From assembly GCF_007671685.1 (NCBI RefSeq), contig NZ_VCNL01000002.1, positions 806,001 to 870,000 of the forward strand: DNA of 64,000 nt, written 5' to 3'. Positions 42,423-47,096 of the stretch are shown here, in pieces (the stretch's first letter is position 1; each line of letters opens with the position of its first letter). The notes under the pieces are model-generated. The model was given only the letters and a program-made list of their open reading frames with translations. It made no database searches and was not told where the DNA came from. Source of the stretch: Halorubrum salsamenti (lineage in GTDB: Archaea > Halobacteriota > Halobacteria > Halobacteriales > Haloferacaceae). A program made the position numbers and the translations under genes.

Positions 42423-43370
42423 TCACGCGACCAGATTCTCCAGTTCCTCGCCGCTGTCGAGCCGGCCGACGTTCTCCGCGAGGATGTCGGCGACGCGCTC
42501 GTAGTAGTGCGGGGTGTGGCCGGCGTTGTGCGGGGTGATCGTGACGTTTCCGAGCCCCCACAGCGGGTGGTCCTCGGGGAGCGGCTCGGGGTCGGTCACG
42601 TCGAGCGCGGCCCCGCGAATGCGGCTGTTCCGGAGCGCCGAGACGAGCGCGTCGGTGTCGACGATCGGCCCGCGCGCGATATTTATAAGGACCGCGTCGG
42701 CTCGCATCGTCCGGAGCGCGTCAGCGTCAACGAGCCCACGGGTCGTCTCCGTGAGCGGACTCGCGAGCACCACGTACTCGGCGTCGGCGATCGCGTCGTG
42801 GAACTCGTCGAACCCGTACACCTCGTCGGTGGGTCCCCCCTTCTCGGGCGAGTACCGGACCCCGACCGTGTCGGCGTCGAAGGGTTCCAGGCGGTCGACG
42901 ACGGCGGAGCCGATCGCGCCGAGCCCGACGACGGCGACGGTCGAACCGTACACCTCGGTCGTCTCGTAGCTCCGCCACTCCCGACGCTCCTGCTGGCGGT
43001 GCGCCCGCCCCCACTGGCGGGCGTGGGTGATCATCGACCCGAGGACGTGTTCGGCGATGTTCGGCTCGTGGACCCCCGAGGCGTTCGTCAGGGCGACGCC
43101 GTGGTCCGCGAGCACCTCACGGGGGAGGTGACCGGTGCCGGCGAACACGCACGCGAACAGTTCCAGGTTCTCGGCGGCGGCCAGCAGCTCCTCGTCGATG
43201 TCGAGCCCGACCGCGATCCGCGCGGTCTCGAGCATCTCTCGCTCCTCGGCCGGCGTTCGGGCCAGCGCCACCGATCGGTCGGGGAGCCGCCCTCGGATCG
43301 CCGCCGCCAGTTCGGTGCCGTCCGAGCCGTGGATCGTCTGTCGCAGCACGACGACATCTGGGTCGGTCAT
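42423..43370 (-). CDS. D-2-hydroxyacid dehydrogenase
   Basis: 315 residues. NAD site: VAVVGLGAIGSAVVDRL. Catalytic residues: Arg in NIARGPIVDTD, Glu in DPEPLPEDHPLWG, and His in TPHNAGHTPHYYE. It interconverts 2-oxo and 2-hydroxy acids with NAD(P)H. Substrate unknown. Divergent from the DUF2589 operon. Confidence 0.9.
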   Translation of the reverse strand: MTDPDVVVLRQTIHGSDGTELAAAIRGRLPDRSVALARTPAEEREMLETARIAVGLDIDEELLAAAENLELFACVFAGTGHLPREVLADHGVALTNASGVHEPNIAEHVLGSMITHARQWGRAHRQQERREWRSYETTEVYGSTVAVVGLGAIGSAVVDRLEPFDADTVGVRYSPEKGGPTDEVYGFDEFHDAIADAEYVVLASPLTETTRGLVDADALRTMRADAVLINIARGPIVDTDALVSALRNSRIRGAALDVTDPEPLPEDHPLWGLGNVTITPHNAGHTPHYYERVADILAENVGRLDSGEELENLVA

Positions 43371-43503: not shown

Positions 43504-44124
43504 ATGCCTAATCCAGACTTCGCGGCCGAACTGGGGAGCATTCCCTACGAGGAGGTGATCGGGACGCCGCTTCGAGCCGCCGTGGAGGCGAACGCGAAGG
43601 CCTCGATGACGGCGGCAGAGTTCATCAGATCGGTCGGCTTCACCGAGCCGACTGTCGGACAGCCCGAACCGGTGACCGTCGAGTTCGGGTACGAGAAGCG
43701 CACTGTCGACGAGGACGGCAACGAGACGGCCGAACGGCGCTCGCTGTCCGTACCGCTGTTGCTGCTCGTGAACGTTCCGTATTTCGAGGTCAGCAACGTG
43801 ACCATCGACTTCAACGTCAAGTTGAACTCGGTGGAGTCGTACGAGCAGTCGAGCGAGTTCGAGTTCGGGTACCAACAGACGAGCCAGGCGAGCGCGAACC
43901 TCGGGTTCCTCCAGGGGAAGACCAAATCCGAGGTCAGCGTGAGCTACCAGCGCTCGTCGTCCCGCGGACAGGAGATCGAGCGGACCTACGACCAGTCGGT
44001 CCACGTGGAGGCGGAGTCGGTCGAGCCGCCGGAGGGAGTGAACCGGTTGATGGGCGCGCTCGAACAGACCATCGCCGACGACTCCTCGAACGGGAACGGC
44101 AACGGCAACGGGAACACGAGCTGA
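43504..44124 (+). CDS. DUF2589-family protein, copy 1
   Basis: 206 residues from ATG 43504. The conserved start IPYEEVIGTPLRAAVEANAK then AAEFIRSVGFTEP, with a following strand (VTVEFGYEKR), is the DUF2589 pattern. A strand-rich core SVPLLLLVNVPYFEVSNVTI then DFNVKLNSVESYEQ suggests a beta-sandwich. The C-terminus ends in an Asn/Gly repeat (NGNGNGNGNTS). No signal or membrane helix. Function unknown. First of four co-directional genes, 10 nt before copy 2. Pfam assignment is by eye. Confidence 0.7.
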   Translation: MPNPDFAAELGSIPYEEVIGTPLRAAVEANAKASMTAAEFIRSVGFTEPTVGQPEPVTVEFGYEKRTVDEDGNETAERRSLSVPLLLLVNVPYFEVSNVTIDFNVKLNSVESYEQSSEFEFGYQQTSQASANLGFLQGKTKSEVSVSYQRSSSRGQEIERTYDQSVHVEAESVEPPEGVNRLMGALEQTIADDSSNGNGNGNGNTS

Positions 44125-44134
44125 ACGGGGAACA

Positions 44135-44737
44135 GTGAACGGAACTGACACCCTCGCGGACCTCCCGCTGTCGTCGCTGTTCTCCGGGCCGCTCGTCGCG
44201 GCCGTCGAGGCCAGCATTCAGGCGCAGACCGAGTCGCTCGCGCTGGTTCGAGAGATCGGGTTCGACGACGAGGGCGACCTGCGGACGGTCTCCTTCGAGT
44301 ACCGGACGACCGAGGTCGACCCCGAAACGGGCGAACAGCGCCAAGCGAGCCGGCAGCTCACGGTGCCACTGGTGTTGTTCCTCTCGGTTCCGGAACTCGT
44401 CGTCCGCGAGATCGAACAGGAGTTCTCCGCGCGGATCGTCGACACGGAATCCAGGGAGCGGGAGGAGGACTCAGACGGGTCGGGCGGATCGGCGGGGCTC
44501 CCGACGCTCTCCCCGAGCCGCCTCCGCGTGTCACCGGCCTCCGAGGAGACCACCTTCTCCCGGAAGACCAAGGCGAAGTTCGATCTCGACGTCCGGATGG
44601 TCGCGGAGATCGACAGCCAGTCGACCGGTATGGAAATGCTCGAACGGACGGCGAACGGCGCGATCCGCGATGAGCCCGGATCGGTGGAGAGAATCGAGGA
44701 CCGATCGCCCCGTCTCGACGAGACCACACGAGAATGA
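44135..44737 (+). CDS. DUF2589-family protein, copy 2
   Basis: 200 residues from GTG 44135. LSSLFSGPLVAAVEASIQAQ, then ESLALVREIGFDDEGDLRTV and FEYRTTEVDPETGEQRQASR, closely parallel copy 1. The hydrophobic strand LTVPLVLFLSVPELVVREIE is shared. A Ser/Gly/Asp insert (about 110-125) and a KFDLDVRMVAEIDSQSTGME segment follow. The two copies are diverged, so they may form a heteromer. Its stop overlaps the next gene's ATG by 4 nt. Confidence 0.68.
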   Translation: MNGTDTLADLPLSSLFSGPLVAAVEASIQAQTESLALVREIGFDDEGDLRTVSFEYRTTEVDPETGEQRQASRQLTVPLVLFLSVPELVVREIEQEFSARIVDTESREREEDSDGSGGSAGLPTLSPSRLRVSPASEETTFSRKTKAKFDLDVRMVAEIDSQSTGMEMLERTANGAIRDEPGSVERIEDRSPRLDETTRE

Positions 44738-45468
44738 CGACGCTCGACAGCTACCTCGCAGCGGTGTACGACGCCGCCGCAGAGGCCGAGACGCTGGCGC
44801 TGATCAACGGCCAGCGGCGACTTCGCCGGATGGTCGAGTCAGGGCGGCTGCCCGAGGACGCCAGTGTGCCGGTCTACCACGCGGCCGACCTCTCCGTGAC
44901 GCTCGACGTCGGGCTCGAGGCGCGCGAGACCGAGGGCGGGACGGAACTCGTCGTGACCGAGTCCGAGTCGAACGACGACACTGCCATCGACATCGATCTC
45001 GAGGTGTACGATATGTTAGAGGCGGGATCCCTTCCCCAGTCGGGAGCCGGGCCCCGGGGGCCCGACACTGTCGACGTTCACTTCCCCATCCCCGATGCTT
45101 CCGATGAAGACGGGGGGTCCGACGGCGGTCACGCCCCACGGACATCGTCACCAACGAGAGGCAGCGACGAGCGGGAGAGGGAAGACGAAGCGGAGCGGGA
45201 GGAGCGCGAACGCGAGCGAGAAGAACGGGAGAACGAGGACGGCGGGCCCGAAGGGCGGGGGAGCGATCGCCGCGGAGACGCCGACGGCGGCGCCCCGTCT
45301 GCCCGTCGTTCCGCGGGGAGCGGGGGGATCCTCCCGTTCGACCTCGACGCGGTCACGGAATCGGATCTGGTCGATCCGACCGAAGACGATCCGGACGACC
45401 GCGGAGGGACGAGAGACGACGGGACCGATACGAACGACGACGCCGAAACCGACCGAAACGATGACTGA
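44734..45468 (+). CDS. Acidic partner protein of the DUF2589 cluster (244 aa)
   Basis: Residues 1-100 are structured: MTTLDSYLAAVYDAAAEAET then LALINGQRRLRRMVESGR, followed by a strand-rich region (SVTLDVGLEARETEGGTELV). From about 125 to 244 the protein is disordered and extremely charged: a Glu/Arg-rich stretch near 150-180, then Gly/Asp/Thr repeats. No known domain. It overlaps the DUF2589 gene upstream by 4 nt and the next gene by 8 nt, which strongly supports cotranslation. Confidence 0.6.
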   Translation: MTTLDSYLAAVYDAAAEAETLALINGQRRLRRMVESGRLPEDASVPVYHAADLSVTLDVGLEARETEGGTELVVTESESNDDTAIDIDLEVYDMLEAGSLPQSGAGPRGPDTVDVHFPIPDASDEDGGSDGGHAPRTSSPTRGSDEREREDEAEREEREREREERENEDGGPEGRGSDRRGDADGGAPSARRSAGSGGILPFDLDAVTESDLVDPTEDDPDDRGGTRDDGTDTNDDAETDRNDD

Positions 45469-45793
45469 GAACGATCCACCACTCGACGACTACTTCGATC
45501 CGCTGCGCACCGACCATCGAACGTCGCTCCGGAAGCGCATGGAGCGCTACCGTGAGCAACTGGAGGACCGAGGGTACGAGGTGACGATCGCCGAGGGAAC
45601 GACGGGCCTGTTCGCCGGCGTGCTCGTCATCGATGAGGACCGGGGGCGCTTCGGGTTCCTCGAGGAGGACGGCAGCGTCTCGTGGCTCGACGGCACGGGG
45701 AGCATCGGCGCGCTCGGGTCCGCCATCGTCCAGAACCACAGCGAGGCGTTCGAACGGCAGACGGCGGAGCTCGACGACCTCGACGTCGAGTGA
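45461..45793 (+). CDS. Last gene of the DUF2589 cluster (110 aa)
   Basis: 110 residues. MTENDPPLDDYFDPLRTDHR, a charged helix (LRKRMERYREQLEDRGYEVT), then a beta-rich part AGVLVIDEDRGRFGFLEEDG and SVSWLDGTGSIGALGSAIVQ. A small alpha/beta domain is likely; no family is recognised. It begins inside the 3' end of the previous gene (8-nt overlap), completing the operon before the converging methionine-pathway gene. Confidence 0.6.
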   Translation: MTENDPPLDDYFDPLRTDHRTSLRKRMERYREQLEDRGYEVTIAEGTTGLFAGVLVIDEDRGRFGFLEEDGSVSWLDGTGSIGALGSAIVQNHSEAFERQTAELDDLDVE

Positions 45794-45860: not shown

Positions 45861-47096
45861 TTACGCGAGCGCCGCGTCGAACGCCCGCTGGAGATCTGCC
45901 TTCATGTCGTCGACGTGCTCGATCCCCACCGAGACCCGGATGAGTCCGTCGGTGAGCCCGGCCGCGAGCCGCTCCTCGCGGGGGATCGCGGCGTGGGTCA
46001 TCGCCGCGGGCTGCTCGATCAGGCTCTCGACGCCGCCGAGCGACTCGGCGAGCGTGAACACCTCGGTCTCGCTGACGACCGTCGACGCCTGATCGAGGGT
46101 CCCGTCGAACTCGAAGGAGAGCATGCCGCCGAACGCGTCCATCTGCTCGGCCGCGAGCTCGTGGTCCGGGTGGCTCTCCAGTCCGGGGTAGTAGACGCGG
46201 CTCACGTCGTCGTGGTCCTCCAGCCACTCCGCCAGTTCCATCGCGTTCTCGCAGTGGCGCTCCATCCGGACGGAGAGCGTCTTCGTCCCGCGCAACACGA
46301 GGAAGGAGTCGAACGGACCCGGCGTCGCGCCCACCGAGTTCTGGTAGAAGCCGAGCCGCTCGTCGAGGTCGGCGTCGTCGACGATCAGCGCGCCGCCGAT
46401 GGTGTCGGAGTGCCCGCCGAGGTACTTCGTCAGCGACTGGGAGACGACGTCGGCGCCGTGTTCGAGCGGGCGCTGGAGGTACGGGGTCGCGAACGTGTTG
46501 TCGACCGCGCAGAGCGCGTCGTTCGCGTGGGCGATGTCCGCGAGGGCGCCGATATCGTTGACGTTCAACAGGGGGTTCGTCGGCGTCTCGACCCACACCA
46601 GCTCCGTCTCCTCGCGCACCGCGTCCCGAACCGCGTCGTGGTCGGTCGTGTCGACGAAGGAGGTCTCGATGTCGTACTGCTCGTACACCTGCGTGAGGAT
46701 GCGGTGAGTCCCGCCGTACACGTCGTCGCCGGCGACGACGTGGTCGCCCGCCTCCAGCAGGTTCAAGACGGTGTTTATCGCGGCCATCCCGGAGGCGAAA
46801 CAGCGCGCGTGGCTCCCGGACTCCAGCGAGGCGAGGTTGGCTTCGAGGTCGGTCCGCGTCGGGTTCCCGGTGCGGCTGTACTCGTACCCGCGGTGCTCGC
46901 CCGGGCCGTCCTGTTGATACGTGGAGTTCGCGTGGATCGGCGTCATCAGCGCGCCGGTCTCCGGGTCGGGCTCCTGTCCGGCGTGGATCGCGCGGGTCTC
47001 GAAGTGTCGGTCGTCGCCGCCGGCCGCGTCGCCCTCGTGGTGATCGCCGCTCTCGCTGGGAGCGTCGCCCTCGGCGTCGTCGGATCGGTCGCTCAT
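45861..47096 (-). CDS. metB: Cystathionine gamma-synthase/beta-lyase family PLP enzyme
   Basis: 411 residues. The N-terminal 30 are acidic linker. The PLP-binding lysine is in SQSLTKYLGGHSDTIGG, and SRTGNPTR and VWVETPTNPLLNVNDI are family motifs. It belongs to the cys/met metabolism family, making or breaking cystathionine in methionine or cysteine biosynthesis. Several activities share these motifs, so the symbol is provisional. It converges with the DUF2589 operon. Confidence 0.88.
   Translation of the reverse strand: MSDRSDDAEGDAPSESGDHHEGDAAGGDDRHFETRAIHAGQEPDPETGALMTPIHANSTYQQDGPGEHRGYEYSRTGNPTRTDLEANLASLESGSHARCFASGMAAINTVLNLLEAGDHVVAGDDVYGGTHRILTQVYEQYDIETSFVDTTDHDAVRDAVREETELVWVETPTNPLLNVNDIGALADIAHANDALCAVDNTFATPYLQRPLEHGADVVSQSLTKYLGGHSDTIGGALIVDDADLDERLGFYQNSVGATPGPFDSFLVLRGTKTLSVRMERHCENAMELAEWLEDHDDVSRVYYPGLESHPDHELAAEQMDAFGGMLSFEFDGTLDQASTVVSETEVFTLAESLGGVESLIEQPAAMTHAAIPREERLAAGLTDGLIRVSVGIEHVDDMKADLQRAFDAALA

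Follow-up and report, generated by a model that had tools for sequence, protein, structure and literature searches.

Four adjacent genes in the window (the whole 64,000-nucleotide stretch of Halorubrum salsamenti DNA that was analyzed), labeled A, B, C and D, form a real and conserved module to which no described system could be matched, in line with the original prediction of an undescribed system at this place. Neither known structures nor defence systems nor phage parts match the module, and its novelty is meant in that sense, not as a claim to a new mechanism. In the open-access literature searched, DUF2589 genes are mentioned in a single sentence of one paper and PF11655 not at all, and a description in subscription journals is possible. 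The module follows a strict subunit grammar common to archaea and bacteria, in which A and C are nearly always found and are accompanied by B or by another protein, E, but never by both. Among close haloarchaeal relatives it is a clean on/off cassette at one defined site, which makes its function testable, and the four genes can be removed or tagged in one piece. D is a haloarchaeal partner that occurred nowhere else in our sample.

The cassette and its DUF2589 proteins

The layout of the cassette is given in Table 1. The gaps between A and B, B and C, and C and D came out at 10, -4 and -8 nt when checked from the sequence, the same values as had been reported before. The genes beyond the two flanking genes encode a cyclophilin and a PhoU-domain protein. 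The Kyte-Doolittle mean did not exceed 1.64 in any 19-residue segment of the cassette proteins, so that no membrane helix is evident in them, as had been claimed. A scan of the locus for sigma-70-type promoters and terminators, using a model that is ill-suited to archaea, returned none.

Table 1. Genes and domains of the cassette and the genes that bound it, in window positions
Feature	Position	Strand	Details
Gene A, DUF2589 protein, canonical paralogue	43504-44124	+	ATG, 206 aa
Gene B, second diverged DUF2589 protein	44135-44737	+	GTG, 200 aa
Gene C, N-domain and charged low-complexity tail	44734-45468	+	ATG, 244 aa
C, conserved N-terminal domain, ~residues 1-115	44734-45078	+	
C, charged tail	45079-45465	+	in place of the HhH domains of other haloarchaeal genera
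Gene D, alpha/beta protein	45461-45793	+	ATG, 110 aa
Left boundary gene, outside the module: D-isomer 2-hydroxyacid dehydrogenase	42423-43370	-	PF02826, 1.9e-53
Right boundary gene, outside the module: Cys/Met metabolism PLP-dependent enzyme	45861-47096	-	PF01053, 9.1e-155

Both copies on whose DUF2589 membership the original prediction hung are members of that family (PF11655), well above its curated cut-off of 23 bits: A matched positions 2-153 of the 154-position model with 94.3 bits (E value 1.3e-26) and B matched positions 1-136 with 53.9 bits (E value 3.5e-14). They are the only DUF2589 members encoded in the genome (3.67 Mb assembly). The annotation of the family goes no further than a protein of unknown function, and it includes neither the partner C, the alternation of B and E, nor the partner D. 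C and D had no family match in Pfam, NCBIfam, PHROGs or PADLOC, and a direct comparison of the window C with PF11655 also gave no match. A tree built from 32 A and 22 B proteins of archaea and bacteria has one branch, with support of 81/94, that separates A from B; the split was recovered in 80% of bootstrap trees, and the B of the window groups with the B rows. This split lends support, short of proof, to one old duplication, with which it is compatible, and the long B branches may distort the tree.

Distribution and gene order in archaea and bacteria

Of the 292 haloarchaeal genomes sampled, 12, from four genera, contain DUF2589, always as two copies. All 12 genomes (that of the window and 11 others) contain A-B-C-D in the same order, with C and D, on whose conservation as downstream genes the original prediction also depended, lying beside A-B in every case. 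Because congeneric species are related, the 12 genomes count as four genera and not as 12 independent events; recurrence of the same order in 11 further haloarchaeal genomes places the four-gene arrangement well beyond chance. D is a partner found full-length only where the module is present, in the haloarchaeal cassettes: a profile search of the 292 genomes returned full-length D from exactly the 12 DUF2589-positive genomes and from no other. The tight spacing from which joint translation had been proposed is kept for B and C, which overlap (-4 or -8 nt) in 9 of 9 cassettes measured, but the coupling of C to D is variable, with a spacing that ranged from -8 to +47 nt across the cassettes measured.

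The flanks of the cassette are conserved within a genus only. Of 28 loci in congeners without the cassette, 25 have the two boundary genes directly side by side, while at the remaining three the retrieved sequence yielded no right-hand gene. Since the flanking genes adjoin in these congeners, the unit that is gained or lost is exactly A to D. In one congener (G097; L053:6400-7327) the repeats of the charged C tail are split between two frames and contain ambiguous bases, so that instability or poor assembly of this region is possible.

A contig search extended the DUF2589 loci to many archaeal and bacterial phyla; the best 80 of 153 were taken, and our count of arrangements covers the 71 loci with a called A gene among those 80. 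The order was A-C-E in 45 loci (in one of which an opposite-strand gene was called between A and C), A-B-C in 13, A-C-B in six, B-A-C in one, A-C in five and A alone in one. A gene of the C family lies beside A in 70 of the 71; the one locus without it is cut off by the end of its contig. As third subunit, B was present in 20 loci and E, an unrelated helical protein of ~190 residues, in 45, and B and E never occurred together among the 71 loci, a pattern that partly tracks phylogeny. Some of these loci also went into the profiles for C and E, so that the family assignments in these counts are not independent, whereas the adjacency of the genes is. The view of the unit as a local haloarchaeal oddity had to be abandoned, as A and C with B or E recur across archaea and bacteria, and the A-B-C module long predates the haloarchaea.

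The only expression evidence found concerns Archaeoglobus fulgidus, in which AF0414-AF0417, genes called DUF2589-related, were jointly up-regulated on lactate (PMC3949148). These are likewise short DUF2589-related genes in a row, and they are most likely the A-B-C operon at locus L061, as the gene order fits. That operon differs from the cassette of the window in having no D, a shorter C and a B in two frames, and the published sentence (PMC3949148) deals with regulation and not with function. The two frames of B in this Archaeoglobus (G391; L061:7588-7979) overlap, and the B of its relatives is intact; the split is due to a frameshift, to decay or to sequencing error.

Several further arrangements were seen outside the haloarchaea. 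Desulfobacterota loci (L090:2636-3355, and also L092 and L104) have a fourth gene after A-C-E that has no Pfam match and whose product, in its middle part, looks by eye like a degenerate helix-hairpin-helix domain. On a Vibrio plasmid (L161:7335-8534) a peptidase-domain ABC transporter and an HlyD-type adaptor are encoded upstream of two adjacent DUF2589-type genes. A similar small gene of 91 aa follows the DUF2589-type genes there, on a V. tubiashii plasmid (L158:8914-9189) and at L159.

The C and D proteins

The C proteins were compared by pairwise hhalign. Archaeoglobi C aligned with bacterial C at 98% (E value 4e-14), and the N-domain of haloarchaeal C (residues 1-66, in register) aligned with the start of bacterial C at 57% (E value 1e-4); this modest pairwise score, together with synteny, suggests that haloarchaeal C belongs to the bacterial C family. 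Bacterial C in turn matched the A family at 83% (E value 9e-6, pairwise) over a 31-column core centered on the motif VP-x-x-R-x-x-E-x-x-ID. This is moderate evidence from which we infer a distant common ancestry of C with A, so that C appears through its N-domain family to be a remote relative and not an unrelated partner. Comparisons of the B and C families that gave hhalign values of 99.4% (two over ~25-27 columns) were dropped as artefacts of gappy columns.

The remainder of C is exchangeable. Residues 116-244 of the window C consist of 47% D/E/K/R and 14% hydrophobic residues, with 44 D/E against 17 K/R, which bears out the earlier description of an extremely charged tail on this 244-aa protein. 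The charged tail is not general to the family, however, but a genus-level replacement of helix-hairpin-helix (HhH) domains. The C of three other haloarchaeal genera ends in an HhH tail, with Pfam HHH_5/DUF4332 matches at loci L050, L057, L060 and L155 (E values down to 4e-11) and a further one, L051, recognized by eye. DUF4332 was also found on the B protein of a Hydrothermarchaeota locus (L103; 1.2e-6), while Archaeoglobi C has no HhH tail.

The presence of an HhH of this type on two different subunits and in two archaeal phyla would fit a nucleic-acid-associated complex, in which the HhH of C, or of B in Hydrothermarchaeota, anchors a beta-rich assembly on DNA or RNA, the acidic tail found in the genus of the window being a derived state. 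We think this quite unlikely, given that the window C has no HhH and a strongly acidic tail, that the C of Archaeoglobi and of most bacteria likewise lacks one, and that HhH domains of such a kind are able to mediate protein contacts as well.

An alignment of 13 D sequences contained 30 invariant columns. The predicted model of D (mean pLDDT 75.7) has an alpha/beta fold, in agreement with the 110-aa alpha/beta protein that had been proposed, and a Foldseek search of the PDB with this model gave no usable structural match. Over 45 residues, D is similar to the last part of the FilR1 middle domain in haloarchaeal regulators (L188:1441-2238 and L189:910-1695; per-genome E value 2.5e-5). D was rejected as part of a FilR1-type regulator, as the two partial matches in such regulators were not borne out by the profile comparison (2.4%, E value 0.019).

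Predicted structure of A and possible functions of the module

The structure of A was modeled with AlphaFold2 using 59 homologues. The model has an N-terminal helix (residues 15-45), two strands (58-68 and 74-84), a long beta-hairpin with arms of ~30 residues each (94-124 and 143-172) and a C-terminal helix (177-191); the mean pLDDT is 69, and that of the far half of the hairpin (112-155) is below 50. A Foldseek search of the PDB with the model gave nothing at an E value <=0.001, with TM scores below 0.3. The invariant residues of A (F40, P84, L86, P92, A170, P176 and G178) are of the F/P/L/A/G type. We set A aside as a candidate enzyme as its invariant columns hold no catalytic-type set, which does not in itself disprove an enzyme function, and none of the module proteins matched an enzyme family in the libraries searched.

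Because the invariant residues are structural, no enzyme family was matched and the partners are inherited together, we favor the view that A, B and C make up a hetero-oligomer with no enzymatic role, in which C does the docking and D serves as an accessory in haloarchaea, a preference that we hold at somewhat less than even confidence. A, B and C would be co-translated subunits of one soluble cytosolic assembly. In each, an N-terminal helix is predicted to precede antiparallel beta strands, and these strands may hold the three together as a ring, tube or filament. The hairpin that would build such an assembly is the part in which the moderately confident model of A is unsure. A would be the main subunit and B a specialized second subunit, with the helical E in its place in most bacteria. 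C would act as an adaptor whose exchangeable tail docks the assembly onto a client or other surface, the tail being of the HhH type in some haloarchaea, charged and disordered here, and a helical insertion in bacteria. D might work only with the assembly, as a cap or regulator. Taken as a whole, the picture of an ancient, cytosolic, heteromeric beta-rich assembly, scattered through archaea and bacteria, with three homologous subunits, exchangeable docking tails, a dedicated fourth subunit in haloarchaea and no described cellular counterpart, is a tentative one that we regard as possible while inclining to doubt.

The long predicted hairpin of A could also be read in another way, as part of a lytic or conflict module. 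The Ser/Thr-rich hairpin would then enter a membrane as an oligomeric beta-barrel under the control of C, a Trypco-like adaptor, and in bacteria also of adjoining peptidases or cell-wall hydrolases. Alternation along arm 143-168 of the hairpin is strong (1.18, against 0.45 when shuffled), but it is absent from arm 94-112 (0.63 against 0.65). The non-significant PDB matches of A include many beta pores as well as phage ring proteins; a long hairpin attracts such a list, and this abundance is no sign of kinship. Among the pores, the best match had an E value of 0.27 and a TM score of 0.12, although this is a weak test with a model that is unsure in the hairpin.

The patchy, cassette-like distribution would suit a lytic or conflict module, as would the genes found near some bacterial loci, such as those for a lysozyme (L160:9554-9997) and an N-acetylmuramidase (L159:10796-11395) near DUF2589 genes on a Burkholderia and on a deltaproteobacterial plasmid. 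This neighborhood of peptidoglycan hydrolases was striking by eye. When counted, the sole repeated cell-wall or peptidase families among the immediate neighbors were Peptidase_C1 (3/107) and Amidase_2 (2/107), and we treat them as a lead and not as a demonstration. In a control at three genes' distance, no such family with at least two members was among the 25 commonest listed; singletons beyond that list may be hidden. Most loci are flanked by housekeeping genes, no peptidase gene adjoins the cassette of the window, and haloarchaea are not known to have peptidoglycan. The PADLOC search gave no match beyond a single chance-level hit to B (E value 0.027), and the missing PDB similarity described above likewise counts against a lytic or conflict role, which we consider unlikely.

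The adaptor part of the lytic reading draws on a weak similarity of C to Trypco2 (PF19631; PMC7159879). A similar order of elements is predicted in C, with a helix, a strand pair and a terminal strand that ends in an xxKLxLxP-like sequence. The best E value between Trypco2 and the C family was 0.0018, for one archaeal C, and hhalign gave 20% (E value 0.001). The C family nevertheless stays below the Trypco2 cut-off of 24.2 bits (best 18.9 bits, with 2 of 43 members at an E value <=0.1), the window C gave no match, and no trypsin-like peptidase, MoxR, vWA or VMAP gene lies beside the module of the window. Trypco2 was therefore kept as a lead only and not accepted as a relative of C. A comparison of A with nine Trypco1 sequences gave no support for Trypco1 as its relative.

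The Peptidase_C1 genes directly beside the operon occur in three unrelated bacterial lineages (L102:7078-7929, L151:5665-7614 and L152:6357-7247), and this could point to a regulator of cysteine peptidases, in which subunits made of a helix and an antiparallel sheet inhibit or chaperone the papain-like enzymes encoded next door. We judge this very improbable: the three are all that were counted among the 107 neighbors, none lies at a haloarchaeal or Archaeoglobi locus, and no cystatin was among the PDB matches listed.

As against the hetero-oligomer that we favor, a domesticated phage or tail-like structural part is a reading to which we give very little weight. Some of the weak structural matches have a ring-and-collar flavor, and the sole match in a library of viral structures, the BFVD protein A0A516MP19, is a clear sequence relative (E value 4e-9). 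The module proteins belong to no PHROGs family, however; one relative was found in 2.9 million viral contigs and no full-length match in 50,697 phage records, and there are no phage genes around the cassette of the window. An IMG/VR contig that carries A-C-B beside an integrase-like gene would also suit a phage origin. The contig is Bacteroidota-like (L175:1226-4956) and has a LytTR-like regulator ahead of A-C-B, with the integrase-like gene following; it is possibly a mobile form of the module.
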